Made by a program: the position numbers and the translations under genes. A stretch of 64,000 nt of DNA from Sphingomonas sp. SORGH_AS_0879 (lineage in GTDB: Bacteria; Pseudomonadota; Alphaproteobacteria; Sphingomonadales; Sphingomonadaceae). The stretch is taken from the NCBI RefSeq assembly GCF_030819175.1, contig NZ_JAUTBJ010000002.1, positions 3,495,001-3,559,000 on the forward strand, in the 5' to 3' direction. Each line of letters opens with the position of its first letter. Position 1 is the first letter of the stretch. Shown here one piece after another: positions 48,421 through 64,000 of this stretch. The notes beneath the pieces were generated by a model. The model saw only the letters and a list, made by a program, of their open reading frames with translations. It did not search any database and had not been told where the DNA came from.

Positions 48421-50558
48421 CCGCCGCCACCCTGCCGCCGACCGGCCCGCTGGCGTGGATCGACATGCTGGGACAGGTCGCGCGGCATTACCGCATGCCC
48501 TTTGCCGAGCAACGCGCGCGGCTGACCGCCTTGTGGCAGGGCGACGACGGGGAGGAGACACGCGTCCGGGCGATCGCGCGCGCTTCCGGCCTGTCGGTGC
48601 GTTTCGTCGCGCCGGGCGCGATCAAGCTGACGAGCTGGCGGCTGCCGGTCATCGCCTGCCTGACCGATGGCGAACTGGCGCTGGTCACCGGGATCGATGC
48701 CGAGGGGCAGGTCGAGTTCATCGTCGCGGGCGAGGACGGACAGGCCGTGCAGCGTCCGCTGGCGATGCTGGTCGAACAGACCCGCCTGTTCGTCGTCCCC
48801 CGCCCGGCCCGATCGGCGGCGGATGTCCGGGTCGACAGCTATATCCGCCCGTTCGAGGAGCATTGGCTGCGCAGCCTGCTGCTCCAGGACGCGCGCAGTT
48901 ATGGCAATGTCGCCGTCGCGTCGGTGGTGACCAACTGCCTGGGGCTGGCGGGCGTGCTATTCTCGATGCAGGTCTATGACCGCGTCGTCCCCGCCCAGTC
49001 GATGCCGACGCTCTATATCCTGTTCCTGGGCGTGCTGCTGGCGACCGGGTTCGATTTCGTGCTGCGGCGGCTGCGGGTCGGGATCACCGATATTCTCGGC
49101 AAGCGCGCCGATCTGCGGCTGTCGGACCGGGTGTTCGGCCATGCCCTGCGCGTCCGCAACCGGGCGCGGCCGACCTCAACCGGCACCTTCATCGCGCAGC
49201 TTCGCGATCTGGACCAGGTGCGCGACATGCTGACCTCCACCACCGTCGCGGCGGTGGCGGACCTGCCCTTCTTCCTGCTGTTTCTGGTCATCCTGGCCTT
49301 TATCGGCGGGGTGCTGGCGCTGGTGCCGGTGGTCGCATTGATCGCGCTGCTGCTGCCCAGCCTGCTCGCCCAGCGCCGCCTCCGCGCCTATGCCACGGAG
49401 TCGATGCGCGAAACTTCGCTGCGCAACGCCCTGCTGGTGGAGGCGGTGCAGGGGATCGAGGATATCAAGGCGCTTCAGGCGGAGGAGCGGTTCCAGCGCC
49501 AGTGGAACCATTGCAATGCGGTGGCGGGCGAGGCGCAATTGCGGCTGCGCGGCCTGACCGCCAGCCTGTCGACCTGGGCGCAGAGCGTGCAGAACGCCGT
49601 CTATGCCACCGTCATCTTCGTCGGCGCGCCGATGGTGATCGCAGGCGACATCACGACCGGCGCGCTGGTCGCCACCTCGATGCTGGCCAGCCGGATGATG
49701 GCACCGATGGGGCAGGTGTCGCACCTGCTCGGCCGCTATCAGCATGCCAAGGTCGCGGCGAACAGCCTGGACCAGATCATGGCCTTGCCGGTCGACAACC
49801 CGGACGCCGAACATCGCATCCCCCTGCCCTCCGCGCGCGGCGGCTTCACCCTGCGCACGGCGGTCTTCTCCTATGCCGATCCGCAATCGCCTCCGGCACT
49901 GACCGTCCCCCGGCTGGAGATCGCGGGCGGTGAGAAGATCGCGGTGCTGGGCCGAAACGGCGCGGGCAAGTCGACCTTGCTCCAGGGCCTGTCGGGCATG
50001 TTGCAGCCGGTCTCGGGCGAGGTGCTGCTCGACGACCTGGCGCTGCATCAGATCGACCCGGCGGATGTCCGGCGCGAGGTCGCGCTGCTGACCCAGAACA
50101 GCCGTTTGTTCCACGGCACGCTCCGCGAGAACCTGACCATGGGCGCGCCGGTGGCGGGCAATGACGCGATCCTGGCCGCGCTGGAGATGGTCGGCGCAGT
50201 CGATTTCGTCCGCCGTCTTCGCGACGGGCTGGAACATGTCGTGCTGGAGGGCGGGCGCGGCCTGTCGGGGGGCCAGCAACAGGCGTTGCTGCTCGCCCGG
50301 CTGCTGATCCGCCAGCCGCAGGTGATGCTGCTGGACGAACCCACCGCCGCGATGGACGAAGCCTCCGAGCGCCAGTTCATCGCGCGCTTCCAGGAATGGA
50401 GCCGCGACCGGACGGTGGTGGTCGCCACCCACCGGATGCGGGTGCTCGACTGGGTCGACCGGGTGATCGTGATCGACAACGGCCTGATCCTGCTCGACCA
50501 GCCCAAGGCGCAGGCGCTCGCGACGCTCCAGGGCGCGGCGCGGAGCCAGGCGGCATGA
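48417..50558 (+). CDS. Type I secretion ABC transporter (LapB/HlyB-like)
   Basis: 713-residue inner-membrane exporter. GTG start overlapping the TolC stop (GTGA). The first ~140 residues are a C39-peptidase-like domain without an evident catalytic Cys motif, as expected for systems that do not cleave a double-Gly leader. A six-helix membrane domain follows (VVTNCLGLAGVLFSMQVYDR, ADLPFFLLFLVILAFIGGVL). The nucleotide-binding domain has Walker A LGRNGAGKSTLL near residue 511, Q-loop LLTQNSRLFHGTLREN, signature LSGGQQQALLLARLL, Walker B VMLLDEPTAAMDE and switch His in VVATHR. It powers adhesin export with the adjacent HlyD- and TolC-like proteins. Confidence 0.92.
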   Translation: MTAATLPPTGPLAWIDMLGQVARHYRMPFAEQRARLTALWQGDDGEETRVRAIARASGLSVRFVAPGAIKLTSWRLPVIACLTDGELALVTGIDAEGQVEFIVAGEDGQAVQRPLAMLVEQTRLFVVPRPARSAADVRVDSYIRPFEEHWLRSLLLQDARSYGNVAVASVVTNCLGLAGVLFSMQVYDRVVPAQSMPTLYILFLGVLLATGFDFVLRRLRVGITDILGKRADLRLSDRVFGHALRVRNRARPTSTGTFIAQLRDLDQVRDMLTSTTVAAVADLPFFLLFLVILAFIGGVLALVPVVALIALLLPSLLAQRRLRAYATESMRETSLRNALLVEAVQGIEDIKALQAEERFQRQWNHCNAVAGEAQLRLRGLTASLSTWAQSVQNAVYATVIFVGAPMVIAGDITTGALVATSMLASRMMAPMGQVSHLLGRYQHAKVAANSLDQIMALPVDNPDAEHRIPLPSARGGFTLRTAVFSYADPQSPPALTVPRLEIAGGEKIAVLGRNGAGKSTLLQGLSGMLQPVSGEVLLDDLALHQIDPADVRREVALLTQNSRLFHGTLRENLTMGAPVAGNDAILAALEMVGAVDFVRRLRDGLEHVVLEGGRGLSGGQQQALLLARLLIRQPQVMLLDEPTAAMDEASERQFIARFQEWSRDRTVVVATHRMRVLDWVDRVIVIDNGLILLDQPKAQALATLQGAARSQAA

Positions 50559-51742
50559 GCGCGGCGGCGACCTTCGACGACCGGCCCTTTGCCGATGAGG
50601 GCGGCGCACAGTTGCTGGCCGCACGGCGGATGCTGTGGGTGCTGACCGCGCTGTTCCTCGTGGCGCTCATCTGGGCCTGGTTCGCCGAACTGGACGAAGT
50701 GGCGACCGGCACGGGCCGGGTCGTGCCGACCAGCCGCGAACAGGTGCTGCAATCGCTGGAAGGCGGCATCCTGGCCAAGATGCTGGTGCGGCAGGACGAT
50801 ATCGTGAAGCCGGGGCAGGTGCTGGCCCAACTCGACCCGACCCAAGCCGGATCGACCGTCGAGGAGAGCGCCGCCAAGTACCGCGCCGCACTGGCCGCGC
50901 AAGCCCGGTTGCAGGCGGAGGTGAACGGCACGCCCCTGACCTTCTCGCCCGAGTTGAACGACTTCCCCGCGCTCAAGGCGGAGCAGCAACGCCTCTATGA
51001 CGCGCGCCGTCGCAGTCTGGCGAGTTCGCTGGGACTGATCGACGAATCCCTCGCGCTGATCGGGCGCGAGGTCGGGATCGGCGAGTCGCTGATCGAGGTC
51101 GGCGCGGCGAGCAATGTCGAGGTGCTGCGCCTGAAGCGGCAACGCGCCGATCTGGACTTGAAGAAATCCGACCTGCGCTCGCAATATACCGTCGAGGCGC
51201 GGCAGGATCTGGCCAAGGTCAGCGAGGAGGTGGAGGCGCTGGCCCCCGTGGTGCGCGGCCGCTCGGACACGCTCAGCCGCCTGACCCTGCGCTCGCCGGT
51301 GCGCGGCGTGGTCAAGAATATCGAAGTGTCGACCATCGGCGGCGTCATCCCGCCGGGCGGCAAGATCATGGAGATCGTGCCGATGGACGAACGCCTGCTG
51401 GTCGAGGCGCGAATCTCGCCGCGCGACATCGCCTTCATCCGCCCCGGTCAGCGCGCCAGCGTCAAGATCACCGCCTATGACTATGCGATCTTCGGGGGGC
51501 TGGAAGGCCGGGTCAGCAGCATCTCGCCCGACACCATCCGGGACGAGGTAAACCCGGACGTCTATTATTACCGCGTCTTCGTGCGGACCACGGCGGACTC
51601 GCTGGTCAACAAGGCGGGCAAGCGCTTTCCGATCGTGCCCGGCATGATCGCGACCGCCGACATCCACACCGGCAGCAAGACCGTGCTGCAATATCTGCTC
51701 AAGCCCCTCAACCGTGCGCGCGAAGCGATGCGCGAGCGATGA
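50555..51742 (+). CDS. HlyD-family membrane fusion protein of type I secretion
   Basis: 395-residue periplasmic adaptor linking the ABC exporter to the TolC channel. One N-terminal membrane helix (MLWVLTALFLVALIWAWFA), then the lipoyl half-motif LDEVATGTGRVVPTSREQVL and LEGGILAKMLVRQDDIVKPG, a coiled-coil hairpin, the second lipoyl half (LTLRSPVRGVVKNIEVSTIG) and the beta-barrel MEIVPMDERLLVEARISPRD. It overlaps the ABC gene by ATGA, and the MarR gene overlaps its own stop in the same way. Confidence 0.92.
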   Translation: MSAAATFDDRPFADEGGAQLLAARRMLWVLTALFLVALIWAWFAELDEVATGTGRVVPTSREQVLQSLEGGILAKMLVRQDDIVKPGQVLAQLDPTQAGSTVEESAAKYRAALAAQARLQAEVNGTPLTFSPELNDFPALKAEQQRLYDARRRSLASSLGLIDESLALIGREVGIGESLIEVGAASNVEVLRLKRQRADLDLKKSDLRSQYTVEARQDLAKVSEEVEALAPVVRGRSDTLSRLTLRSPVRGVVKNIEVSTIGGVIPPGGKIMEIVPMDERLLVEARISPRDIAFIRPGQRASVKITAYDYAIFGGLEGRVSSISPDTIRDEVNPDVYYYRVFVRTTADSLVNKAGKRFPIVPGMIATADIHTGSKTVLQYLLKPLNRAREAMRER

Positions 51743-52251
51743 GCCGCACCCTTTCCCATCCGCCGCAATCCCGTGGGCATGGATCGCCCATGGCCTCAGC
51801 TCAGGATATTCGCATGCCGAAAACCATGGCCGCGGGCCACCATGTTTCCAACGGATTCGGAAGGGTCCCCGGACTGCGTTCCCAGGGGGAGGGCCGCGCC
51901 ACCCTGGTCGATCTGGCGCGGCAGACCCAGGCCATGCGCGCCAATGTCGCGGAGTTCTTTCCGCGCGACATCTTCCGCGATTCCGCTTGGGACATGATGC
52001 TGGAGCTATTCATCGCCGAGCAGGAGAGCCGTCCCCTCTGCGTCAAGGAACTGATCCTGGTCTCCGGCGAAAGCTCGACCAGCGCGCTGCGCCGGATCGA
52101 CCGGCTGGAAAGCGCCGGGCTGCTGCGCCGACGGACCGACCCCGCCGATCACCGGCGGCTGGCCGTCACCCTGACGCAGCGTGGCACCGACGCGATGACC
52201 GCGATGCTCCGCCACCTCTATCTGACCATGGGCGACGGCGACGGCCATTAG
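51739..52251 (+). CDS. MarR-type winged-helix regulator
   Basis: 170 residues. The first ~55 residues are unstructured-looking and unlike MarR proteins, so a later start (for example ATG 51790) is possible. The DNA-binding part spans about residues 60-165: PLCVKELILVSGESSTSALR as helix-turn-helix, RIDRLESAGLLRRRTDPADH as recognition helix and wing, and RRLAVTLTQRGTDAM after it. The ATGA overlap with the HlyD-like gene makes it the last gene of the secretion operon, so feedback control of the adhesin/secretion genes is likely. Sphingomonad strains often carry a similar regulator next to such genes, though I cannot verify this here. Confidence 0.78.
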   Translation: MSRTLSHPPQSRGHGSPMASAQDIRMPKTMAAGHHVSNGFGRVPGLRSQGEGRATLVDLARQTQAMRANVAEFFPRDIFRDSAWDMMLELFIAEQESRPLCVKELILVSGESSTSALRRIDRLESAGLLRRRTDPADHRRLAVTLTQRGTDAMTAMLRHLYLTMGDGDGH

Positions 52252-54589: not shown

Positions 54590-57079
54590 GTGATTTCGAC
54601 CCGCACGATCCTGTTCCAGATTCACTGGTTCCTAGGGATCACCGCTGGACTGGTGCTGGCTGTGATGGGCGTCACGGGTGCGCTGATCAGCTTCGAGCCG
54701 GAGATCATGGCGGCGACCAATCCCGGCATCGTCACGGTGACACCGGGGCATAGCGCGCCGCTTTCCGCCCCGGCACTGATCGCCCGGATCACCGAGCAGA
54801 TGCCGGACGCGCGCATTGCCCGGCTGGTGGTCGACAGCGCCCCGACCAAGGCGGCCTTTGTCGGCTATACCTTGGGCGAGGATAAGACGCGGCTTAACGC
54901 CTATGTCGATCCGACGACGGGCCGAATACTGGGCGAGCCGCGCGGCGCGGGTTTCTTCGAGACGGTAGAGGAACTGCATCGCTGGCTCGCGCTGCCCGGC
55001 AAAGGGAACGGCATCGGACGCCAGATCACGGGTTTCGCCGCGCTGTCGCTCATCTATTTCGCGCTGTCGGGTCTCTATCTGCGCTGGCCGCGCAAGCCGC
55101 TGGACTGGCGCAACTGGTTCGTGCTCGACCTGCGGATGACCGGGCGCAACCTGTACCGGGCGCTCCATGCGGTCATCGGCGGCTGGGTGCTGATCTTCTA
55201 TCTCATCAGCGCGGGCACGGGGCTGTGGTGGTCCTATGACTGGTACCGCACCGGGGTCCGGCACCTTCTGTCCAGCGAACAGGCCGCGCATGGCCCACGC
55301 GAGGGTGGCAAGGACGGTCGGGGCAAGCAAGCCACGCCCGTCGACCTCGCGACCATCTGGCAGCGTTTCGATCAGGCGACCGGCCATCATCCCTATGAGC
55401 GCGTCACCGCCTCGGTTCGCGACGGCGTGGTCCAGTTCCGGGGCAAGCTGGCCGAAGGGCGGCACGACCGCGTCTCCGACGAAGTCAGCATCGACAGCGT
55501 GACCGGGCGCGTCACCTCCAACCAGCCCTATGCGAAGCGTCCCTTGGGTGATGATATCGTCACCAGCGTCTATGAAATCCATCGCGGCGCCTATTTTGGT
55601 CTGGTCGGGCGGATCGCCATGACGCTGGCCAGCCTGACCATGCCGCTGTTCACCATCACCGGCTTCCTTCTCTATTTCGCACGGCGGCGGCGGAAAGCGG
55701 CCCTGGGCGCGGTCCTCACCGATACGGCTCCGGTCCCGACAGAGGCGGCGGCCACCCTGGTCGCCTATGCGAGCCAGACGGGCTCCGCCGAGCGGATCGC
55801 CCGGCTGACCGCACAGGCACTGCCCGGCGCCGCCGCGCTGCCCATCGCCTCGCTGACCGCCGAGCAACTGGCACGGGTCGACCGGCTGTTCGTCGTCGCC
55901 AGCACCTATGGCGAGGGGGAGCCGCCCGACGCCGCGCGCGGCTTTGCCCGGACCATGGCACAGACGCCCGCCGACCTGTCGCACCTCTCCTATGCCGTAT
56001 TGGCGCTGGGCGACCGGGAATATCCCGACTTCTGCGCCTTCGGGCACCGGATCGACCAGTGGCTGCACAGCGGCGGCGCGCAGCGGCTGTTCGACGCGAT
56101 CGAGCAGGATGGCGAGGATGCCGATGCGCAGCGCCTGTGGCAGCAGCAACTGGCCGGGCTCGGCGCGCGCACAGACCAGCCCGATTGGGCCCCCGCCGCC
56201 ATGGCCGACTGGCGGCTGGTCGAGCGGCGCCTGCTCAATCCGGGCAGCAGCGGCGGCGAGACATGGCATATCGCGCTGGAACCGCTGGCGGGGCCCGCCG
56301 ACTGGGCGGCGGGCGACATATTGGAAATCCTGCCCCGCCAAGACCCCCGCCGGGTCGATGCCTTTCTGTCGGCCACCGGGCTGGCCGATACGCCCGAATT
56401 GCGCGAGCGGCTGATGGACAGCATCCTGCCTGCGGAGGCGGGGCCCGGTTTCGACTCCACCGCGCTGCGTCCCCTCGCCCACCGCGAATATTCGATCGCC
56501 TCGATCCCGGTTGCGGGCCGCGCCGAGCTGATCGTCCGGCTGGCGGAGGCGGAGGATGGCCTGCCGGGGCTGGGATCGGGCTGGCTATGCCATGGCGCGC
56601 CGCTGGGCTCGGTGGTGCGGGCGCGGGTCCATGCCAATGCGGCGTTCCACTCGCCCGCCAATCCGGCCACGCCGATGGTGCTGATCGGCAACGGCACGGG
56701 CCTGGCGGGCCTGCTCGCCCATCTGCGCGGACGCGCGGCGAGCGGTGGCGGACCCGTCCTGCTGTTCTGGGGGGAGCGGCATCCCGAACATGACGATTAT
56801 CACCGCGAGGAACGCCGGGCGCTGCTCGATGCCGGGGTGCTGTCGGGCATGACCACCGCCTGGTCGCGCCTGGGCCATGGTCCGCGCTATGTGCAGGACG
56901 CGCTGGCGGACGCGGCGGATGTGCTCCGCGACGCGGTGGCGGCGGGCGCCGCCCTCTATGTCTGCGGCAGCCTGAAGGGCATGGCGGGCGATGTGCACCG
57001 CGTGCTGACCGATATCCTGGGCGACGACATGCTGGAGGATATGGCGGCGACGAGCCGCTACGCCCGCGATGTCTATTAA
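54590..57079 (+). CDS. PepSY membrane/flavodoxin/NADPH-reductase fusion, probable siderophore-iron reductase
   Basis: 829-residue inner-membrane protein with three modules. Residues 1-375 are a PepSY-type membrane region with four hydrophobic segments (FLGITAGLVLAVMGVTGALI, GWVLIFYLISAGTGLWWSYD) and conserved His in ELHRWL and EIHRG that could bind haem. Residues ~390-520 are a flavodoxin domain (LVAYASQTGSAERIARLTAQ, VVASTYGEGEPPDAA, VLALGDREYPDFC). Residues ~540-829 resemble sulfite/P450 reductases with the FAD motif HREYSIASIP and the NADPH motif LIGNGTGLAGLLAH. Electrons could pass from NADPH through FAD/FMN to a membrane cofactor and then to periplasmic ferric-siderophore. GTG start at 54590. 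Divergent from the siderophore receptor across a Fur box. Confidence 0.85.
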   Translation: MISTRTILFQIHWFLGITAGLVLAVMGVTGALISFEPEIMAATNPGIVTVTPGHSAPLSAPALIARITEQMPDARIARLVVDSAPTKAAFVGYTLGEDKTRLNAYVDPTTGRILGEPRGAGFFETVEELHRWLALPGKGNGIGRQITGFAALSLIYFALSGLYLRWPRKPLDWRNWFVLDLRMTGRNLYRALHAVIGGWVLIFYLISAGTGLWWSYDWYRTGVRHLLSSEQAAHGPREGGKDGRGKQATPVDLATIWQRFDQATGHHPYERVTASVRDGVVQFRGKLAEGRHDRVSDEVSIDSVTGRVTSNQPYAKRPLGDDIVTSVYEIHRGAYFGLVGRIAMTLASLTMPLFTITGFLLYFARRRRKAALGAVLTDTAPVPTEAAATLVAYASQTGSAERIARLTAQALPGAAALPIASLTAEQLARVDRLFVVASTYGEGEPPDAARGFARTMAQTPADLSHLSYAVLALGDREYPDFCAFGHRIDQWLHSGGAQRLFDAIEQDGEDADAQRLWQQQLAGLGARTDQPDWAPAAMADWRLVERRLLNPGSSGGETWHIALEPLAGPADWAAGDILEILPRQDPRRVDAFLSATGLADTPELRERLMDSILPAEAGPGFDSTALRPLAHREYSIASIPVAGRAELIVRLAEAEDGLPGLGSGWLCHGAPLGSVVRARVHANAAFHSPANPATPMVLIGNGTGLAGLLAHLRGRAASGGGPVLLFWGERHPEHDDYHREERRALLDAGVLSGMTTAWSRLGHGPRYVQDALADAADVLRDAVAAGAALYVCGSLKGMAGDVHRVLTDILGDDMLEDMAATSRYARDVY

Positions 57080-57897
57080 CCCGCCGCCCCGTCATCGGGG
57101 CGATAGCCCAGTTGCTGCGAAATGCGGGCGGTGGTCTCGGCCAGGATGCGCCGCGCCTCCTCGATCGTCACCGATTGCGAGCCGTCGATCGTCTCCAGGA
57201 ACGGGATGGTCAGCGCCGCCATGCAGTCGCCGCCGAACCCGAACACCGGATAGCTGATATCGGTGACGCCGCGCGTGATCGGGCTTTCGCGCAGTTCATA
57301 GCCCTGCGCCCGCACCCGCTCCAGATCCTCGATCAGGCGGGTCCGCCCGATCGGCCTGCCCTGTGCCAGTTCGACCCGGTCGACGATCCGCCCGAACTGC
57401 GCGCGCGGCGCGAAGGCGAGCAGCACCTTGCCCGAGCAGCTGGTGACGATATCGATCGACGCGCCCATGCGCAGCGCGAAGCCCCGCGTCCCCGGATTCT
57501 CCTCGCGCGCGATGACCAGCCCCGCACCGCCCTCGATCACCACCAGGTGACAGGACTGCCCGACCGTCAGCGCCAGCGACTGCATCTCGGGCAGCGCGGC
57601 GGCGGTCAACTGGCGCGCGGGCGTGGCGCGATAGGCTATGTCGAGGAATTTGTACGTCACCCGGTACCGATCGTCGATCGGCGACTTTTCCAGATAGCGC
57701 GCCTCTTCCATCACCACGACGATGCGGAACAACTCGCCCAGCGAGCGGCCCAGCGCGGTCGCCATCTCGCTGACCAGCATGCCCTGCGGATGGCTGGCGA
57801 GCAGTTCGATGATGAGAAACGCCTTGTCCAGCGCGGGCGCGGCATAGCTGCCCTTGCGGACACGCCCCTCGACCGTCTTGCCGCCCTCACCCGTCAT
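57076..57897 (-). CDS. IclR-family transcriptional regulator
   Basis: 273-residue regulator. N-terminal winged helix (APALDKAFLIIELLASHPQG, SEMATALGRSLGELFRIVVV) and C-terminal GAF-like effector domain (SCHLVVIEGGAGLVIARE, TSCSGKVLLAFAP, RGVTDISYPVFGFGGDCMAA). IclR regulators commonly control aromatic or sugar-acid pathways; here it follows the LgoD-like gene on the same strand and probably senses an aldonate or keto-deoxy acid of that cluster. I prefer ATG 57897 with GAAGGGGATGG upstream. Its stop overlaps the PepSY gene stop by 4 bases, convergent. Confidence 0.88.
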   Translation of the reverse strand: MTGEGGKTVEGRVRKGSYAAPALDKAFLIIELLASHPQGMLVSEMATALGRSLGELFRIVVVMEEARYLEKSPIDDRYRVTYKFLDIAYRATPARQLTAAALPEMQSLALTVGQSCHLVVIEGGAGLVIAREENPGTRGFALRMGASIDIVTSCSGKVLLAFAPRAQFGRIVDRVELAQGRPIGRTRLIEDLERVRAQGYELRESPITRGVTDISYPVFGFGGDCMAALTIPFLETIDGSQSVTIEEARRILAETTARISQQLGYRPDDGAAG

Positions 57898-57961
57898 GCC
57901 ATCCCCTTCCATCGTCATCGGATTAGGACGACGCCGGATGGCGGGCAATAGGGCATGGGGA

Positions 57962-58978
57962 TCAGGCGATGGTGACGATCGCCTTCAGCACCGAATCCGC
58001 CTCCGCGATCAGTTCGGGCAGGCGGCGGGGCGCCTCGTCCAGCGTCAGCGCATGGGTGCGGATCGCATCGGTCGGGATCGCGCCGCTGCGGATGCTGGCG
58101 ATGACATGGTCAAAATCGACCGACAGCGCGTTGCGGCTGCCGATCAGCGTCGTCTCGCGCTTGTGGAATTCGGGATCAGGAAAGACCAGATCGTCCTTGC
58201 ACACGCCCACCAGCGTGAAGCTGCCGCCATGCGCCAGCCAGTTCAGCCCGTCGCGCATTGCATGGATATTGCCCGTCGCGTCGAAGACATGGTCGAACAT
58301 CTCGCCATTCGTCATCGCCGCCAGCCGCGCGGCCATGTCGACATCGGCGACCACCCCCTCGGCAAAGCCCAGATGCTCGCGCGCATAGGCCAGGCGCGGT
58401 GCGCGGGTATCGACCAGCACGATCCGCCCCGCCCCCGCGATCCGCGCGAACAGGGCGACCGCGATCCCGATCGGCCCCGCGCCGATGACGATCACCTCCT
58501 CGCCCGCCGTCAGCATCGATCGCCGCACGGCATGCGCGCCGATCGCCAGAAACTCGACCATCGCCGCCTGGTCGAGCGACAGGCCCTCCGCATCGATCAC
58601 CGCGCTTTCGGGCGCCGACAGCATCTCGCACATGCCGCCATCGGCATGGACGCCCAGCACGCTGATCCGCGCGCAGCAATTGGGCTTGCCCCGGCGACAG
58701 GCGCGACAGGTGCCGCAGGCGATATAGGGATTGATCGTCACCACCTGCCCGACCGCGAAGCGCGAGCCCGATGGCACCTCGGCCACCTCACCCGCCAGTT
58801 CGTGTCCGATCAGCCGAGGATATTCGAGGAAGGGGTGCTTGCCGCCATAGATATGATAGTCGGTGCCGCAAATCCCCGCCCGACGCATCCGCAGCAGCAC
58901 CTCGCCCTCACTCCGCACCGGCGCGGGGCGATCCTCCACGCGGATTTCGTTCGGCCGCACACAGACCAGAGCCTTCAT
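57962..58978 (-). CDS. Zinc alcohol dehydrogenase, L-galactonate 5-dehydrogenase (LgoD)-like
   Basis: 338-residue medium-chain dehydrogenase. Catalytic zinc ligands in AGICGTDYHIYGG and GHELAGE, structural zinc Cys in ACGTCRACRRGKPNCC, and NAD site VIGAGPIGIAVALFARIAG. The C-terminal stretch VFPDPEFHKRETTLIGSRNA closely follows E. coli LgoD/YjjN, which oxidises L-galactonate to D-tagaturonate. In a cluster with UxaB-like and UxaA-like genes this reaction fits; with a 6-deoxy substrate it would act on L-fuconate. GAGGGTG precedes the ATG. Divergent from the mutarotase gene. Confidence 0.85.
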   Translation of the reverse strand: MKALVCVRPNEIRVEDRPAPVRSEGEVLLRMRRAGICGTDYHIYGGKHPFLEYPRLIGHELAGEVAEVPSGSRFAVGQVVTINPYIACGTCRACRRGKPNCCARISVLGVHADGGMCEMLSAPESAVIDAEGLSLDQAAMVEFLAIGAHAVRRSMLTAGEEVIVIGAGPIGIAVALFARIAGAGRIVLVDTRAPRLAYAREHLGFAEGVVADVDMAARLAAMTNGEMFDHVFDATGNIHAMRDGLNWLAHGGSFTLVGVCKDDLVFPDPEFHKRETTLIGSRNALSVDFDHVIASIRSGAIPTDAIRTHALTLDEAPRRLPELIAEADSVLKAIVTIA

Positions 58979-58998
58979 TTCACCCTCTTCCACATTCC

Positions 58999-59024
58999 TA
59001 TATGCGACCATGCTCTCACATATG
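58999..59024. promoter_or_regulatory. Inverted repeat in the divergent promoter of the L-sugar cluster
   Basis: TATATGCGA (58999-59007) and TCACATATG (59016-59024) are inverted repeats with 7 of 9 matches and an 8-bp spacer. It sits between the LgoD-like and mutarotase genes. It is a reasonable IclR operator candidate, although IclR sites are variable. Confidence 0.45.
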
Positions 59025-59128
59025 CCATTGAAGCGCTAGTGCAGGATGGCTAGTCTGGCAAGAATTGCTCTCGGGACGACCGATGGTACGCATCCGGGGG
59101 CGACATGAGAGAAGAGAGGAGGCCCGTT

Positions 59129-59467
59129 ATGGCCCGACGCCTGTGTTTCGCGCTCGATCTGGTCGCGGATGCCGAACTGATCGCGGAATATGAACATGCC
59201 CATGCCGCCGGACGCGCCTGGCCCGAGGTGACGGCGGCGATCCGGGCCAAGGGGTTCCTGGCGATGGAGATCTGGCGCACCGGCGACCGGCTGTTCATGA
59301 TCGCCGAGGTCGCGGACGACTGGCCCCGCGCCATCCCCGCCGAACTGGCCGCCACCGATGCGCGCTGGGAAGCGGCGATGGACCGCTTCCAAAAGCCCCT
59401 GCCCCATGCCGCACCGGGCGAGAAATGGGTGGCGATGGAGCGCATCTATTCGCTGGACGAACAATGA
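59129..59467 (+). CDS. L-rhamnose/L-fucose mutarotase-family protein
   Basis: 112-residue member of the RhaM-like family (dimeric alpha-beta-barrel), which interconverts sugar anomers. Family features are LCFALDLVADAELIAEYEHA, AWPEVTAAIRAKGFLAMEIW and the strand GDRLFMIAEV, then RWEAAMDRFQKPLP. ATG 59129 has GAGGAGG six bases upstream; the in-frame ATG at 59105 adds a charged stretch unlike the family. Overlaps the next gene by ATGA. Supplies the correct anomer to the aldo/keto reductase at 62231. Confidence 0.85.
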   Translation: MARRLCFALDLVADAELIAEYEHAHAAGRAWPEVTAAIRAKGFLAMEIWRTGDRLFMIAEVADDWPRAIPAELAATDARWEAAMDRFQKPLPHAAPGEKWVAMERIYSLDEQ

Positions 59468-60597
59468 CCGACGTGGCCCCGCCCAACTCCTGCATCCTGC
59501 AATTCGGGACCAGCCGCTTCCTCCAGGCGCATGTCGACTTCTTCGCCGAGGAAGCGCGCGCCGGGGGACAGGCGGTGCCGCCGATCGTCATCGTCCAGAC
59601 CACCCGCGACCCGGAGCGGGCGAAGAGGCTGGCGGGATTTGCCGATCCGGCGGGTTTCCCGGTCATCCTGCGCGGCTTGCGCGAGGGCACTCCCTTTGAG
59701 CGGACCGTCACGATCCGCAGCGTGCGCGAGGGGTTGAGCGCCGCCGCGCAATGGGATCGGCTGACCCGGCTGGCCGTGGAAGAGGCGACGCATATCGTCT
59801 CCAACTCCGGCGATAGCGGCTATCAGGTGCCCGACAGCGATCGCATCGCCCCGGACGAAGGTGAGGTTCCGGTGAACTTCGTCGGGATGCTGACCGAATT
59901 GCTCCATCGCCGGTGGCGGGCGGGTGATGCGCCCGTAACCATGCTGCCGTGCGAGTTGGTCGCGCGCAACGGCGACGCGCTGAAGGGCGTCGTCACGGGG
60001 CTCGCGCGCGAACAGGGGCGCGACCCTACCTATCTCGACTGGCTGGAGCGGGCCTGCGTCTGGGCCAACACGCTGGTCGACCGGATCGTCAGCGAACCGC
60101 TCTCCCCTGCCGGGGCGGTCGCCGAACCCTATGCGCTCTGGGCGGTCGAGCGGCAGCCGGGGCTGGTCCTGCCCTTCACCCATCCCGACATCGTCCTGAC
60201 CGACGATCTGGAGCGATATGAGCGGCTGAAGCTGCATATCCTCAATCTCGGCCATAGCTGGCTGGCGGCGCGCTGGCATGCACGGAGCGGCGCGGCGGAC
60301 CAGACGGTCCGCGCGGCGCTGGCCGATGGCGAGACGCGGGCGGCGCTGGAGCGGGTGATGGTGCAGGAGGTCATCCCCGGTTTCGCCGCGCATGGGCTGG
60401 CCGAGGAGGCGCGCGATTATGCCGCGACGACGCTGGAGCGCTTCGCCAATCCGTTCCTCGACCACCGGCTGTCGGATATCTTTTCCGGACATGCGGCGAA
60501 GATCGACAAGCGGGTGGGCGCGTTCATCCGCTGGGTCGATGCGACGGGGGAGAAGGTGGCGATGCCGGAGTTGCGGATGCTGGTGGAGCGGGCCTGA
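59464..60597 (+). CDS. Mannitol dehydrogenase-family reductase, UxaB (tagaturonate reductase)-like
   Basis: 377-residue NAD-dependent long-chain polyol dehydrogenase. N-terminal dinucleotide fold begins ILQFGTSRFLQAHVDFFAEE; ISNSGD-like IVSNSGDSGYQ follows. The C-terminal catalytic motif K-x4-N-x2-H is present in KLHILNLGHSW. ELVARNGDALKGVV and the FANPFLDHRLSDIFSGHAAK segment match fructuronate/tagaturonate reductases, which give D-mannonate or D-altronate. The expected reaction here is D-tagaturonate to D-altronate, the step after the LgoD-like enzyme and before UxaA. Coupled by ATGA to the mutarotase gene. Confidence 0.85.
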   Translation: MTDVAPPNSCILQFGTSRFLQAHVDFFAEEARAGGQAVPPIVIVQTTRDPERAKRLAGFADPAGFPVILRGLREGTPFERTVTIRSVREGLSAAAQWDRLTRLAVEEATHIVSNSGDSGYQVPDSDRIAPDEGEVPVNFVGMLTELLHRRWRAGDAPVTMLPCELVARNGDALKGVVTGLAREQGRDPTYLDWLERACVWANTLVDRIVSEPLSPAGAVAEPYALWAVERQPGLVLPFTHPDIVLTDDLERYERLKLHILNLGHSWLAARWHARSGAADQTVRAALADGETRAALERVMVQEVIPGFAAHGLAEEARDYAATTLERFANPFLDHRLSDIFSGHAAKIDKRVGAFIRWVDATGEKVAMPELRMLVERA

Positions 60598-60611
60598 ACT
60601 TCCCTACCTCC

Positions 60612-60695
60612 GTTCAGCCTGAGCGAAGTCGAAGGCCAAGGGATTCCCGTGCTCTAAGGTCGGGGGCGTGCACTTCGACTTCGCTCAGTGCGAAC
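60612..60695. repeat. Long inverted repeat between convergent genes (REP-like/bidirectional terminator)
   Basis: CTGAGCGAAGTCGAAG (60619-60634) and CTTCGACTTCGCTCAG (60673-60688) are perfect 16-bp inverted repeats, with partly matching GTTC/GAAC flanks at 60612 and 60695. The loop is 38 bp. From memory, this sequence recurs as an intergenic palindrome in many sphingomonad genomes. Placed between two convergent operons it can end transcription from both sides. The only copy seen in this window. Confidence 0.75.
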
Positions 60696-60714
60696 GGGCG
60701 TCGAAAGTCCCTCC

Positions 60715-61938
60715 TCACGCCGCGCGCGGCAGACAGGCGGGCCCCTTGGCCCCCGCCGCCTTGTAGGTCAGGACGAACTCCTGATGCCCCAGCGCTTCAG
60801 ACTTGGTTTCCGCGCCCGCCGACACCGCGACGATCAGGTCGACGATCTCCGCCCCCACTTCGTCCAGCGTCGCCTCGCCATAGAGGATGCGACCGGCATT
60901 GACGTCCATGTCGCCTTCCATGCGCGCGTACATTTCCGGGTTGGCCGCGATCTTGATGACCGGCGAGATGGCCGAGCCGACCACCGAGCCGCGCCCGGTC
61001 ACGAACAGGTTGATATGCGCTCCGCACGCGATCAACTCGCCGATCTCGGCATTGTCGACGATATTGGGGAAGCCGAACTTCGGGTCGCCCGCAGGCACCA
61101 CGTCGAGCAGATACAGCCCCGGCCCCGGCGCCTGTTCGGCGGGCAGGATGACGCCGGTGATCGGACGGCTGCCCGACTTGGCATAGGCGCCCGCCGACTT
61201 CTCCTCCTGGCTCGACAGGCCGCCTTCGGCATTGCCCGGCGCGAAGCTGCCATAGCCCATTGCCCGGTAATAGCGTTCGGCCTGCGCGACCGAGGCGATC
61301 AACGCGTCGGCCACCTCCGGCGTCGCGGCACGCTCGGCCATATGGCCCTCGCACCCGATCATCTCGCCGGTTTCTTCAAAGATGCAGATCGCGCCCGCAT
61401 CGTACAGCGTGTCGAAGGCGCGGCCGACCGCCGGGTTGCCGGTGATGCCGCTGGTCCCGTCCGATCCGCCGCAGATGGTGCCGATCACCAGTTCGGACAT
61501 GGTCATCGGCACCCGCACGGCCTGCGCATCCGCCGCCGCGCGGACCCGCTCGACCGCCGCGATCCCCGCCTCCATCGCGCCGCGCGTGCCGCCCGACTGC
61601 TGGATGACGATCGTCTCGACCGGACGCCCCTGCTCGCGCGCATTGGCGGCCAGCGCCTCGCGGTTGAAGCTCTCGCAGCCCAGCGACAACAGGACGACGC
61701 CACCGACATTGGGATGCGTCGTCAGCGCCTTCATCATCGCCAGCGCATAGTCATTGGGGTAGCAGCCGGGAAAGCCGATCAACTGCACGCGCGGGTCGTC
61801 CATGCGGTCGACGATCCGTCGCGCGACATGATGCGCACACTCGACCAGATAGACGACGACGATCGCGTCGCGAATACCCTTGCGGCCATCGGGACGTGCC
61901 CAGGCCTGCCAAGTCCGTCCAGTCATGCCCAGCGTCAT
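60715..61938 (-). CDS. UxaA-family dehydratase, large (C-terminal) subunit
   Basis: 407-residue catalytic part of an altronate/galactarate dehydratase-type enzyme, encoded apart from its SAF domain. RDAIVVVYLVECAHHVARRI, HPNVGGVVLLSLGCESFNRE, TIVIQQSGGTRGAMEAGI, ELVIGTICGGSDGTSGITGN and CEGHMAERAATPEV are family blocks with conserved Cys and His that bind the catalytic metal. With the UxaB-like gene it should dehydrate D-altronate (or a 6-deoxy analogue) to 2-keto-3-deoxygluconate. The ATG overlaps the SAF gene stop by 4 bases. Confidence 0.88.
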   Translation of the reverse strand: MTLGMTGRTWQAWARPDGRKGIRDAIVVVYLVECAHHVARRIVDRMDDPRVQLIGFPGCYPNDYALAMMKALTTHPNVGGVVLLSLGCESFNREALAANAREQGRPVETIVIQQSGGTRGAMEAGIAAVERVRAAADAQAVRVPMTMSELVIGTICGGSDGTSGITGNPAVGRAFDTLYDAGAICIFEETGEMIGCEGHMAERAATPEVADALIASVAQAERYYRAMGYGSFAPGNAEGGLSSQEEKSAGAYAKSGSRPITGVILPAEQAPGPGLYLLDVVPAGDPKFGFPNIVDNAEIGELIACGAHINLFVTGRGSVVGSAISPVIKIAANPEMYARMEGDMDVNAGRILYGEATLDEVGAEIVDLIVAVSAGAETKSEALGHQEFVLTYKAAGAKGPACLPRAA

Positions 61939-62234
61939 GCGTGATCTCCGTGCGCGTCGCGCAGATGCGCGGGAATATAATCGCTTTGCATATTGTGCAT
62001 GTGGACCCAGCCCCCGGCGGGCGCGTCCTGCGTCATCGATCCGATGGGCATGCCGTATTTGATGACCTTGTCCCCCGCCGCCAGCGGCACGACCGCCAGC
62101 TTGTGGCCCAGCGCCACGCGCTCGCCGATGACGAGTTCATGGCCGTCCACGACGATATGCTCGCCCGGCTCGACCGTGCGACAGCAGACCGCGACATTGT
62201 CCGTCGGGGTCAGGCGGATCGCCGCGACGCTCAT
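61935..62234 (-). CDS. UxaA-family small (SAF-domain) subunit
   Basis: 99-residue SAF domain that in single-chain UxaA forms the N-terminus. AAIRLTPTDNVAVCCRTVEP, the ERVALGHKLAVVPLAAGDKV core and IKYGMPIGSMTQDAPAGGWV are diagnostic; the terminal HVHN-type motif appears as VHMHNMQSDYIP. Overlaps the genes on both sides by 4 bases, which ensures equal synthesis of the two subunits. Split UxaA also occurs in L-fucose clusters of other bacteria. Confidence 0.88.
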   Translation of the reverse strand: MSVAAIRLTPTDNVAVCCRTVEPGEHIVVDGHELVIGERVALGHKLAVVPLAAGDKVIKYGMPIGSMTQDAPAGGWVHMHNMQSDYIPAHLRDAHGDHA

Positions 62235-63259
62235 GCCGCGTCCCCCGGAACGGGCGCATCGGGGCGGACGAGCCCTTCGTCCCGCAGCTCCGCCCAGAAG
62301 GCGGACGGAATGGGTTCAGCATAAAGACGCATGGTATCGGCCACTTGTTGCGGATCGGCGATGCCCGGAATGACGCTCGCGACCTGGGGATGCGCCAGGA
62401 CGAAGGCGAGCGCGGCGGCGGGAAGCGAGACATGGTGCCGCCCCGCGACCTTTTCCAGCGCGCGGACCTTGTCCAGCACGGCGGCGGGCGCGGGGGCGTA
62501 GTTGTAGCGGGCGGCGGCCTCGCTGCCCGTCGCGAGGATGCCGCTGTTATAGGGCCCGCCGACGACGATGGCGGTATCCGCCTCCGCGCAGGCCGGGAAC
62601 AGCGCGTCGAGCGCCCCCTGCTCCAGCAGCGTATAGCGCCCGGCGAGCAGGATGACGTCGAACCGCGCCACCTCCATCAGCTCCAGACAGACCTCGACCT
62701 CGTTCACCCCCAGCCCGAACCCGGCGATCGCGCCCTCGTCGCGGAGCCGCTCCAGCGCCTTGAGGCCACCGCCCGCGATCAGTTGCTCGCGATATCGCGC
62801 ATCCGCCTCGCCATGCGTGACGCGGCCGATATCGTGGATGAAGGCGAGATCGACCCTGGCCAGCCCCAGCCGCTGAAGGCTGTGCTCATGGCTGCGCATG
62901 ATGCCGTCATGCGTATAGTCGTAGCGCATGCGGAAGGGCATGGCGGTGTGGAAGCCGTCGCGCTCGCGATCGTCGGTGATGCCCGCATCCGGGTCCATCA
63001 GCCGCCCGACCTTGGTCGAGACGATCACGTCGCCCCGCCCGCGCAGCGCGTCGCCCAGCCGCCGTTCGCTCAACCCCCGGCCATAATGCGGCGCGGTGTC
63101 GAAATAGCGGAAGCCGGCGTCCAGCGCCGCCGCCAGCGTGGCGGCGGCCTGCGTATCGCTCATCGCGGCGTAGAGATTGCCCATCGCCGCCGCGCCGAAG
63201 CCCAGTTCGGGAAGCCGGCAACCGGTCCGACCCACCGGGCGGCGGGGAATATCGGTCAT
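62231..63259 (-). CDS. Aldo/keto reductase, L-galactose/L-fucose 1-dehydrogenase-like
   Basis: 342-residue TIM-barrel oxidoreductase. The N-terminus VGRTGCRLPELGFGAAAMGN and the catalytic residues are typical: Asp and Tyr in FDTAPHYGRGLSERRLG, Lys in VIVSTKVGRL and His in LAFIHDIGRV. GFGLGVNEVEVCLELM follows, and the C-terminus has the cofactor-binding VIPGIADPQQV. It belongs to the group called D-threo-aldose or L-fucose 1-dehydrogenase, which oxidises L-fucose, L-galactose or D-arabinose to lactones. Overlaps neighbours on both sides by 4 bases. Confidence 0.85.
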   Translation of the reverse strand: MTDIPRRPVGRTGCRLPELGFGAAAMGNLYAAMSDTQAAATLAAALDAGFRYFDTAPHYGRGLSERRLGDALRGRGDVIVSTKVGRLMDPDAGITDDRERDGFHTAMPFRMRYDYTHDGIMRSHEHSLQRLGLARVDLAFIHDIGRVTHGEADARYREQLIAGGGLKALERLRDEGAIAGFGLGVNEVEVCLELMEVARFDVILLAGRYTLLEQGALDALFPACAEADTAIVVGGPYNSGILATGSEAAARYNYAPAPAAVLDKVRALEKVAGRHHVSLPAAALAFVLAHPQVASVIPGIADPQQVADTMRLYAEPIPSAFWAELRDEGLVRPDAPVPGDAA

Positions 63260-64000
63260 AGGTCCAGGTCCAGTCGATAGATCCGGTTGGCGTTGCGGCC
63301 CCACAGGTCGCGCCGCTCATCCTCCGAAAAGCCCGCCAGCAGCGTCTCATAGGCGCTAAGCGTCCGTTCGAGATCGGCGGCCAGCCGGTCGGTCGGGAAG
63401 TTGGTCGCGACCATCACGCGGGAGGGGCCGAACCGGTCGATCACCTCCGCAATGATGTCGGCGAAACCGGCGGGATCGAAACGCGGCCCGATAAAGCCCG
63501 CCCCCGACAGCTTGATCGCGGCATGCGGCATGGCGGCGAAGGCGTTCAGCCCGGCGCGCCATTCCTCCAGCCCGTCCGCCGGGATCGGCAGCGCGAGATG
63601 GTTGAGGATGACCGGCACCTCCGGATGCCGAACCGCCACCTCCGCCAGCCCCGCAAGTTGCGCCGGAAAGCCGTGAAAGTCGTAGCTGAGGCCGTAGCGC
63701 CCGAGCAGCGCATAGCCGTCCCGCCAGCGTGGATCGCGGGTCAGGTCGCGATCATAGGCCCGGCGCGCCGCATCGGTCGGGTGCCAGTTGATGAGGTGAC
63801 GGATGCCCTTCACGCGAGGATGCGCCGCCTGCCATGCCAGTTGCGGCTCGACCGCCGGACGGTCCAGTTCGACCCGCGCGACGATGCCGCTCGGCAGTCC
63901 GTCCGCATCGGCGACGCGATTCAGCCAGACGGTCTCGTCCGCGCCCTGATCGGGATGCGCGCCCGCATCGACATGCACAGCGCCGACCAGGTTCCACGCG
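63256..64000 (-). CDS. Amidohydrolase-family sugar lactonase (COG3618), 5' end outside window
   Basis: Metal-dependent TIM-barrel hydrolase of the L-fucono/L-rhamnono/L-galactono-lactonase group. The visible 248 residues run from AWNLVGAVHVDAG at the window edge to the C-terminus ending NRIYRLDLDL; the first strands and their HxH region are missing. Seen are KGIRHLINWHPTD (metal His), LSYDFHGFPAQL, VILNHLALPIP (metal His), AIKLSGAGFIG and MVATNFPTDRL (catalytic Asp region). It would open the lactone produced by the overlapping aldo/keto reductase. Substrate choice between L-fuconolactone and L-galactonolactone cannot be read. Confidence 0.82.
   Translation of the reverse strand, partial: AWNLVGAVHVDAGAHPDQGADETVWLNRVADADGLPSGIVARVELDRPAVEPQLAWQAAHPRVKGIRHLINWHPTDAARRAYDRDLTRDPRWRDGYALLGRYGLSYDFHGFPAQLAGLAEVAVRHPEVPVILNHLALPIPADGLEEWRAGLNAFAAMPHAAIKLSGAGFIGPRFDPAGFADIIAEVIDRFGPSRVMVATNFPTDRLAADLERTLSAYETLLAGFSEDERRDLWGRNANRIYRLDLDL

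Follow-up and report, generated by a model that had tools for sequence, protein, structure and literature searches.

L-Fucose Route III, heteromeric UxaA-type dehydratases and the route from L-galactose to 2-keto-3-deoxygluconate (KDG) are already published. An L-galactose pathway was reported for Phocaeicola vulgatus (Hobbs 2014, as cited in PMC12632266), and a two-gene UxaA-type member of Paraburkholderia mimosarum was inferred from its gene context to be an L-fuconate dehydratase (PMC6336799). Here, we analysed a 64,000-nucleotide stretch of Sphingomonas sp. SORGH_AS_0879 (the window; bases 3495001-3559000 of contig C2, which accounts for 4.21 Mb of the 4.33-Mb genome), whose right end carries a sugar cluster with a split UxaA dehydratase, an LgoD-like zinc-dependent dehydrogenase (ZnDH) and a UxaB-like reductase. 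We lean, a little beyond an even chance, towards reading the locus as a dual catabolic cluster of the non-phosphorylating kind, serving both L-fucose and L-galactose, its 6-hydroxy analogue. An L-fucose Route III operon seems to have joined with a module that inverts L-galactonate at C5 and brings no dehydratase of its own, because the split UxaA is unlike the usual companions of ZnDH and UxaB, belongs to a subfamily often found with Route III genes and is the sole UxaA-family member that a search of the genome gave. L-Fucose, at least, probably ends in the hydrolytic cleavage of Route III, as suggested by a short-chain dehydrogenase/reductase (SDR) of the L-2-keto-3-deoxyfuconate (L-KDF) family, the FucP permease, the type of split UxaA and a FAH-family hydrolase gene in four of the seven loci of this type. 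The observations concern gene content, synteny, subfamily placement, key residues, purifying selection and a shared promoter block; from them we infer the substrates and reactions of all cluster enzymes.

Results

Gene content and recurrence of the cluster

Family searches recovered every family that an earlier, sequence-only reading of the window had named between 57076 and 64000, and two further genes were found just past the window end:

57076..57918, minus strand: IclR-family regulator, 280 aa if started at the first ATG; a TTG at 57948 opens the longest reading frame
57962..59011, minus strand: LgoD-like ZnDH of the medium-chain type (ADH_N/ADH_zinc_N)
58996..59006, minus strand: CGCATATAGGA block in the ZnDH/rhaM divergent promoter region, matching degenerate CGCNYATARRA; possible shared operator
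59105..59467, plus strand: RhaM-family mutarotase (PF05336, 83.9 bits, cut-off 23.4)
59464..60597, plus strand: UxaB-like protein (tagaturonate reductase subfamily of the mannitol-dehydrogenase family; Mannitol_dh and Mannitol_dh_C), short, 377 aa
60715..61938, minus strand: split UxaA/GarD-type dehydratase, large subunit, C-terminal part (GD_AH_C, 266 bits)
61935..62234, minus strand: split dehydratase small subunit, UxaA N-terminal part, 99 aa; no Pfam match, NCBIfam match to the galactarate dehydratase N-terminus at 38.9 bits against a full-length cut-off of 730.85
62231..63259, minus strand: aldo/keto reductase (AKR), predicted L-fucose/L-galactose 1-dehydrogenase (Aldo_ket_red, 161.3 bits)
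63256..64000, minus strand, cut by the window end: COG3618-type/Amidohydro_2 lactonase (Amidohydro_2, 116.7 bits); whole gene of 299 aa at C2:3558256-3559155 (L002:7256-8155)
C2:3559140-3559871, past the window end, same strand as the lactonase: SDR of the L-KDF 4-dehydrogenase family (8XWK, E 1.6e-84)
C2:3559871-3561193, past the window end, same strand as the lactonase: FucP-type L-fucose:H+ symporter (TIGR00885)

The genes form three units: a minus-strand run in the order fucP (from C2:3561193), SDR, lactonase, AKR, UxaA-N and UxaA-C; a plus-strand rhaM-uxaB unit, whose genes overlap by 4 bases; and a minus-strand ZnDH-iclR unit. The listed families were all present, yet the cluster does not hold a complete pathway: SDR and FucP lie outside the window, and the KDPG-aldolase, PfkB-kinase and FAH family members found are encoded elsewhere in the genome. 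Extending the contig, which the sequence-only reading had proposed for a transporter, KDG kinase and aldolase, supplied FucP in the same operon; a KDG kinase candidate and KDPG-aldolase-family genes are encoded elsewhere. A cluster without a transporter was rejected, since FucP and the SDR gene lie just beyond the window end.

We scored 104 loci for gene content with self-chosen identity thresholds, some loci being cut by contig ends: this locus, 80 UxaB loci, 15 split-UxaA loci, five plasmid records and three loci from two family genomes. At least 582 UxaB loci were confirmed and the 80 best of them taken, which tilts the sample towards close UxaB relatives; the split-UxaA loci came from a draw of 398 phylum genomes (16 matched at E 1e-120, including the own genome), and the plasmid records were the five with a match out of 317. 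Split UxaA and UxaB occurred together in seven loci, all of which also held ZnDH, SDR, AKR, lactonase, FucP, mutarotase and IclR, with FAH upstream of fucP in four and D-glycerate-3-kinase-like plus hydroxyacid dehydrogenase genes in two. The same gene set and order as here was found again in the six other loci (L009, L010, L012, L013, L128, L149), and dN/dS of ten cluster genes, compared against six relatives, was 0.02-0.29 in all 60 pairwise comparisons. These results indicate that the cluster is more than a chance assembly.

Split UxaA without UxaB was seen in 20 loci, which contained SDR (11), lactonase (11), FAH (10), mutarotase (10), AKR (9) and FucP (5); none of the 20 had ZnDH. UxaB with fused UxaA was found in 50 loci (two of them, L027 and L147, both on contigs of 83,072 bases, are probably one locus), with ZnDH at ≥45% identity in the same stretch in 49, AKR in 18, mutarotase in 14, lactonase in 11, SDR in 7 and FAH in 6. 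A further 27 loci had UxaB and no recognised UxaA in the stretch; one of these, L011, represents the present cluster type on a short contig end. SDR and FAH were both present in six of the 50 fused-UxaA loci (L019, L053, L054, L056, L060, L069) and in three UxaB loci without recognised UxaA (L047, L048, L076). Genome G683, which we took as a natural control, keeps the two types apart: UxaB adjoins a fused UxaA on one contig, and the split UxaA lies with AKR and SDR on a second contig. Among 397 family genomes drawn, UxaB-like proteins (E up to 1e-60) occurred in 3, G683 being one of them. UxaA-family proteins were seen in 96 at E up to 1e-20, and 18 of these 96 genomes had one at ≥48% identity.

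The dehydratase belongs to a split subfamily

The UxaA small-subunit gene adjoins the large-subunit gene in relatives as well. The large subunit was 57-69% identical to 20 split homologues outside the S. sanguinis group and 34-38% identical to the fused UxaA of UxaB loci (48 rows). A quick maximum-likelihood tree built from 71 sequences placed the split homologues, 21 rows, on one side of a branch with SH-aLRT 100; the fused and E. coli rows did not separate into groups, and the rows flagged as long branches (the two from E. coli, L126 and others) may be misplaced. The tree was built without the split loci L112, L114, L117, L122, L148 and L149. On the strength of this identity range and the separate side of the tree, we rejected the idea that the split UxaA is just another member of the fused group that accompanies UxaB.

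Cysteines 34, 59, 88 and 156 were present in every homologue aligned, 21 split and 48 fused, as well as in E. coli UxaA and GarD, and four conserved cysteines are the likely iron ligands in the UxaA superfamily (PMC6336799). A genome search with PF20629 gave a single match, the split enzyme, and no other UxaA-family protein; the cluster stretch held no FucD-type enolase at ≥45% identity. The large subunit showed dN/dS of 0.02-0.08 against the six relatives. Published rates for a single-chain UxaA-family member were 100% with D-arabinonate, 12% with D-altronate, 5.6% with L-fuconate and 2.4% with L-galactonate (PMC6336799). As a caution for annotation, proteins of the split subfamily named 'altronate hydrolase' may be L-fuconate-type dehydratases.

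Split UxaA was also seen on a Ponticoccus alexandrii plasmid (L127; NZ_CP047170.1, 6758-12803), in a Route III-like row with SDR, FAH and mutarotase; the row also holds a Gfo/Idh/MocA oxidoreductase and a MaoC-domain protein, and no AKR.

SDR, FAH hydrolase and possible endings

The best PDB matches of the SDR were 8XWK, 8Y11 and 8Y4J (E about 1e-84), which are structures of the Herbaspirillum huttiense L-KDF 4-dehydrogenase. With a hand-counted offset of four residues, the SDR keeps the equivalents of R148, R192 and R214 (in NR, SLDER and AFIAR), which bind substrate in the H. huttiense enzyme (PMC11199699). The kcat/Km values of that enzyme, per min per mM, were 7900 for L-KDF, 1480 for L-KDGal, 641 for D-KDP and 75 for D-KDG (PMC11199699).

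A FAH-family gene, the candidate 2,4-diketo-3-deoxy-acid hydrolase, lies elsewhere in the genome at C2:1204.7 kb and is 87-95% identical to the FAH of L010, L012, L013 and L149. FAH adjoins fucP on its upstream side in L010 and L012 (S. sanguinis) and stands upstream of fucP beyond two more genes in L013 (S. paucimobilis) and L149 (G735). A glutamine-amidotransferase-like gene lies beside FAH at C2:1204.7 kb and likewise in L010, L012 and L013; in L009 and L128, with no FAH in the stretch, the amidotransferase-like gene adjoins fucP. This identity and the common neighbour suggest that a rearrangement upstream of fucP probably split FAH from the cluster here. Separately, FAH, hydroxyacid dehydrogenase and a D-glycerate-3-kinase-like gene precede the fucP operon on the same strand in L013 (15533-19709) and L149 (15800-19900), a trio pointing to glycerate as a possible end product.

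The PfkB-kinase and KDPG-aldolase members found in the genome, the ending families searched beside FAH, all lie outside the cluster; they include a KDG kinase candidate at C2:3875.9 kb (288 bits against a cut-off of 400) and two KDPG-aldolase-family genes.

The LgoD-like and UxaB-like pair

ZnDH stands nearer to E. coli LgoD (42% identity) than to RspB (31%), in line with the LgoD-like step of the sequence-only reading; its best curated model (NCBIfam) reached 184.8 bits, below the cut-off of 376. The enzyme is predicted to oxidise L-galactonate at C5. The best NCBIfam model of the UxaB-like protein was tagaturonate reductase, also at 184.8 bits and below its cut-off of 359, and identities were 28% to E. 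coli UxaB, 96% to a protein of Sphingomonas sp. 2378 and 83% to one of Sphingomonas sp. Leaf21. N169, K256, N261 and H264 were invariant in a 20-sequence alignment; they correspond to the catalytic set of the mannitol dehydrogenase family. The predicted activity is reduction at C5, giving D-altronate. With dN/dS of 0.20-0.29 for UxaB and 0.10-0.23 for ZnDH in the comparisons with six relatives, the pair is under purifying selection, which argues that it is in use, though less constrained than the dehydratase.

Predicted front end: uptake, sugar oxidation and lactone opening

FucP scored 371.4 bits with TIGR00885, above the curated cut-off of 280.4, and 348.7 bits with the stricter PRK10133 model, under its cut-off of 427. 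The RhaM orthologue in L128 is annotated from a later ATG, equivalent to 59129 here. All five best PDB matches of the AKR are named L-galactose dehydrogenase, and a P. mimosarum AKR of the same superfamily oxidises D-arabinose, L-fucose and L-galactose (PMC6336799). The nearest solved chains of the lactonase, 6UVZ and 4DLF, are named amidohydrolase 2 only. Three genes of the alpha-L-fucosidase family GH29 were found in the genome. A GH95-linked substrate in this genome was set aside, the GH95 N-domain being unmatched.

A promoter block common to fucP and ZnDH

A second copy of the CGCNYATARRA block lies in the fucP promoter (C2:3561267-3561277). The pattern was picked by eye from six loci before counting, and the counts are post hoc: 13 matches in the seven loci, in the fucP promoter of 7/7 and the ZnDH promoter of 6/7 and nowhere else in these loci, with 0.03-0.20 matches per locus expected by chance. 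The stricter CGCNTATARRA matched once in the window (0.12 expected; 11 of 100 shuffles reach one) and twice in L002 (0.06 expected; 0 of 200 shuffles reach two). Over the whole genome, the CGCNYATARRA block had 23 matches, including the two at this locus, versus 60 for a reversed control pattern, and the 66 loci L023-L088 gave nine block matches in 1.34 Mb. In L019, whose IclR is 79% identical over 263 residues, a match stands about 60 bases before the uxaB start; eight loci with IclR at 57-67% identity (L014-L017, L021, L022, L034, L056) had no block.

The regulator matched IclR_C (66.3 bits) and HTH_IclR (35.9 bits) and was present at ≥55% identity in 7/7 loci of the cluster type. The block common to the fucP and ZnDH promoters hints at one regulon; because the pattern was chosen after inspection, this evidence is suggestive only. 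We infer that IclR is the regulator of the block-bearing promoters.

Flanking genes and other sugar-acid loci

Upstream of the fucP run lie a DedA-type membrane protein, an XerD-like recombinase, adk and secY (named by reading the open reading frames). On the left, the cluster is bordered by an 829-aa protein with PepSY transmembrane, flavodoxin and reductase-like parts (window 54590-57079) beside a TonB-dependent receptor; no tie to the sugar cluster was seen. TolC-like, type I secretion and adaptor genes flank the cluster both here (47107-52251, by reading) and in L128 (annotated), where a large Bap-type adhesin follows. Here the cluster block belongs to the 4.2-Mb contig; the L128 record that holds it (S. 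parapaucimobilis, NZ_CP155753.1) bears the label of a 385-kb plasmid.

A second sugar-acid cluster (cluster 2) was seen at C2:2674308-2685803 of the same genome (G000; L089:9308-18917 and L090:1-1803). Its row holds an SDR of the L-KDF-dehydrogenase family, an LldD-type L-2-hydroxyacid dehydrogenase, FAH, AKR, a hydroxyacid dehydrogenase and a D-glycerate-3-kinase-like gene, followed by a beta-helix protein with a match to the GH141 insertion domain, regulator- and MFS-like genes (by reading) and an enolase-superfamily protein. The SDR and AKR are 72% and 58% identical to those of the main cluster, and the FAH is 65% identical to that at C2:1204.7 kb; the best model of both hydrolases was 2,4-didehydro-3-deoxy-L-rhamnonate hydrolase (422 bits for the gene at C2:1204.7 kb and 444 for the cluster 2 paralogue, cut-off 500). 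The kinase best matched the D-glycerate-3-kinase structure 7XPC (E 1.3e-24) and is 57-61% identical to the kinases of L013 and L149. The nearest structure of the enolase was 2OZ8, an Mll7089 protein whose name gives no function, well ahead of L-fuconate dehydratase chains. The content of cluster 2 would suit an L-hexose route with L-glycerate, hydroxypyruvate and D-glycerate at its end. We set cluster 2 aside as the place of the missing hydrolase, since it is the FAH at C2:1204.7 kb that matches the sister-cluster hydrolase at 87-95%. Another locus, at C2:3874010-3880896 (L144:8010-14896), holds a GH29 gene, the KDG kinase candidate, mannonate dehydratase, uronate isomerase and a fructuronate-reductase-like gene, and is likely a glucuronate locus with a fucosidase-family gene.

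Discussion

Proposed routes and points against them

L-Fuconate, L-galactonate and D-altronate are alike at C2-C4, and D-altronate is the C5 epimer of L-galactonate. The three acids share this configuration and are all used by one UxaA-family dehydratase (PMC6336799). In the dual reading, FucP would import the sugar, RhaM would speed anomer exchange, the AKR would oxidise C1 to give the lactone, and the COG3618-type enzyme would open it to L-fuconate or L-galactonate. The split UxaA would dehydrate L-fuconate directly to L-KDF, which the SDR would oxidise at C4 and the FAH-family enzyme encoded at C2:1204.7 kb would hydrolyse to pyruvate and L-lactate, as in Route III. For L-galactonate, the LgoD-like dehydrogenase and the UxaB-like reductase would together invert C5 to yield D-altronate, which the same split UxaA would dehydrate to KDG; KDG could then either be phosphorylated by KDG kinase and cleaved by KDPG aldolase or be taken on by the SDR and the hydrolase. 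A dehydratase common to both routes, with only the hexose inverted at C5, would explain why ZnDH and UxaB stand beside a Route III operon. The fucP operon, the rhaM-uxaB unit and the ZnDH-iclR unit probably make up one IclR-controlled regulon.

This reading draws support from the make-up of the operon, with FucP above its curated cut-off; the SDR type and its arginines; the company that split UxaA keeps in the 20 other loci; the substrate range of the published UxaA-family dehydratase; the single UxaA-family protein found in the genome; the purifying selection on UxaB and ZnDH; the repeated occurrence of both routes side by side in other loci; the arrangement in G683; the three GH29 genes; and the promoter block.

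Several findings weigh against this dual reading. D-Altronate activity was published for another family member, a single-chain enzyme, which works on it at 12% of the rate seen with D-arabinonate (PMC6336799), and the H. huttiense SDR is 105-fold poorer with D-KDG than with L-KDF (PMC11199699). The Luteolibacter L-galactose dehydrogenase made no use of L-fucose (PMC12632266), so one enzyme need not serve both sugars. The best NCBIfam model of the lactonase, L-fucono-1,5-lactonase, reached 110 bits against a cut-off of 400; the cluster stretch of this genome has no FAH, and the genome has no match to the GH95 N-domain. UxaB had the highest dN/dS of the ten genes in 6/6 comparisons. Among the 20 other split-UxaA loci, nine lack a recognised SDR and ten lack FAH in the stretch.

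The hydrolysis of 2,4-diketo acids gives L-lactate from L-fucose, L-glycerate from uninverted L-galactonate and D-glycerate from inverted L-galactonate, and D-glycerate is the substrate that D-glycerate 3-kinase needs. A more specific version of the dual reading, which we regard as doubtful though worth stating, is a hitherto undescribed 'C5-inverted Route III' in which L-galactonate would be inverted to D-altronate, dehydrated, oxidised at C4 by the SDR and hydrolysed by FAH to pyruvate and D-glycerate with no sugar phosphate; L-fucose would pass uninverted through the same three enzymes, namely the dehydratase, the SDR and the hydrolase. The D-glycerate-3-kinase-like and hydroxyacid dehydrogenase genes between fucP and the hydrolase in L013 and L149 bear on this version.

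Alternative explanations

The linear pathway of the sequence-only reading, in which L-galactose would pass via L-galactonate, D-tagaturonate and D-altronate to KDG with kinase and aldolase encoded elsewhere and the SDR incidental, appears unlikely. The order of steps fits, the LgoD-like and UxaB-like genes are present, the genome supplies the KDG kinase candidate and KDPG-aldolase-family genes, and a pathway of such design was demonstrated in Luteolibacter (PMC12632266). Simpler clusters occur in L015, L016 and L017, which hold FucP, AKR, lactonase, ZnDH, UxaB, fused UxaA and IclR, lack the L-fucose-route SDR and FAH in the stretch, and should show what a pure L-galactose-to-KDG cluster looks like. 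The linear reading is thus supported in part; the present locus, which probably handles both sugars, departs from that design: its split UxaA lies outside the fused clade, SDR and FucP stand in the same operon, and FAH is nearby in 4/7 loci.

Next comes a cluster for L-fucose only, also unlikely, in which Route III works and ZnDH and UxaB either act on 6-deoxy acids (6-deoxy-D-altronate, finally D-lactate) or are a leftover L-galactonate module. FucP, the SDR type, the split subfamily, the three GH29 genes and the position of UxaB as the least constrained gene are consistent with it. Against it, UxaB and ZnDH were under purifying selection in 6/6 comparisons and ZnDH and fucP have the promoter block in common; moreover, 43 of the 50 scored loci with fused UxaA and UxaB have no L-fucose-type SDR in the stretch.

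It is quite improbable that another sugar of the same C2-C4 configuration, such as D-arabinose or O-methylated fucose, is the true substrate. The range of the P. mimosarum AKR would allow it; D-arabinonate, however, has no secondary alcohol at C5, so ZnDH and UxaB would be idle on it, and FucP reaches the L-fucose permease cut-off. We give hardly any credence to a D-galacturonate route joining the window UxaB and UxaA to a uronate isomerase at C2:3878 kb, with the sugar-oxidising genes separate: a glucuronate isomerase family gene (557 bits, cut-off 387) does lie with the KDG kinase candidate, mannonate dehydratase and a fructuronate-reductase-like gene at C2:3875-3881 kb, but that locus has its own mannonate dehydratase and reductase, fitting glucuronate, and UxaB and split UxaA sit with AKR, lactonase, mutarotase and FucP in 7/7 loci.

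Comparison with known systems

If the dual reading is true, two sugar-acid routes have been fused into one regulon with one common dehydratase, a concrete case of promiscuous enzymes letting catabolic modules recombine. L-Galactose serves plants as a precursor of vitamin C and also occurs in the side chains of polysaccharides from plants and algae, and plant-associated sphingomonads would have a predicted means of using it together with L-fucose. We found no description of these two routes sharing one dehydratase in one cluster in the open-access literature, the scope of the search; subscription papers such as Watanabe 2019 (Mol Microbiol, altronate dehydratase family proteins), which mostly fall outside that scope, may hold part of it.

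The fucose cluster of Campylobacter jejuni (Cj0480c-Cj0489/0490) resembles this locus in its IclR, split UxaA, FucP, COG3618 and mutarotase genes; it has an aldolase and aldehyde dehydrogenase ending and is not known to carry ZnDH or UxaB. Sister sphingomonads (Sphingomonas sp. PP-CE-1A-559, S. gellani and Sphingomonas sp. Leaf208; L015-L017) share FucP, AKR, lactonase, ZnDH, UxaB and IclR, and differ in having fused UxaA, no L-fucose-route SDR or FAH, and a GH95 glycosidase gene in L015 and L016. Nine loci of Rhizobium, Ensifer and relatives (L072-L075, L077-L080, L083) all carry fused UxaA, UxaB, AKR and ABC sugar-transport genes of three shared clusters, with a FucU-like mutarotase in seven and no L-fucose-route SDR or FAH in the stretch; they are candidate pure L-galactose clusters in Rhizobiaceae. 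PMC12632266 states that its search turned up no organism having the Luteolibacter gene set without the epimerase; the simpler clusters of sphingomonads and Rhizobium may be functional counterparts of that set with more distant genes.

The L-galactose pathways of Phocaeicola vulgatus and Luteolibacter LG18 (lgu cluster, PMC12632266) have a sugar dehydrogenase, a C5 dehydrogenase and a tagaturonate reductase, to which the AKR, the LgoD-like ZnDH and the UxaB-like protein would correspond. The lgu cluster also includes a UxaA-family dehydratase, and its likeness to the present cluster is one of function. Unlike these systems, the present cluster has a split UxaA of another subfamily than that beside UxaB in relatives, together with FucP, lactonase and L-KDF dehydrogenase, and no KDG kinase or KDPG aldolase. 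The L-fucose Route III systems of Xanthomonas, H. huttiense and P. mimosarum (cluster 2 of that species, with a heteromeric UxaA-type dehydratase, compared here by its description in PMC6336799) have a permease, mutarotase, 1-dehydrogenase, lactonase, UxaA-type dehydratase and L-KDF 4-dehydrogenase, for each of which this locus holds a candidate counterpart. Compared with them, the FAH hydrolase is near the cluster in some relatives of this locus and outside it here, and the locus adds the LgoD-like and UxaB-like C5-inverting genes and IclR.

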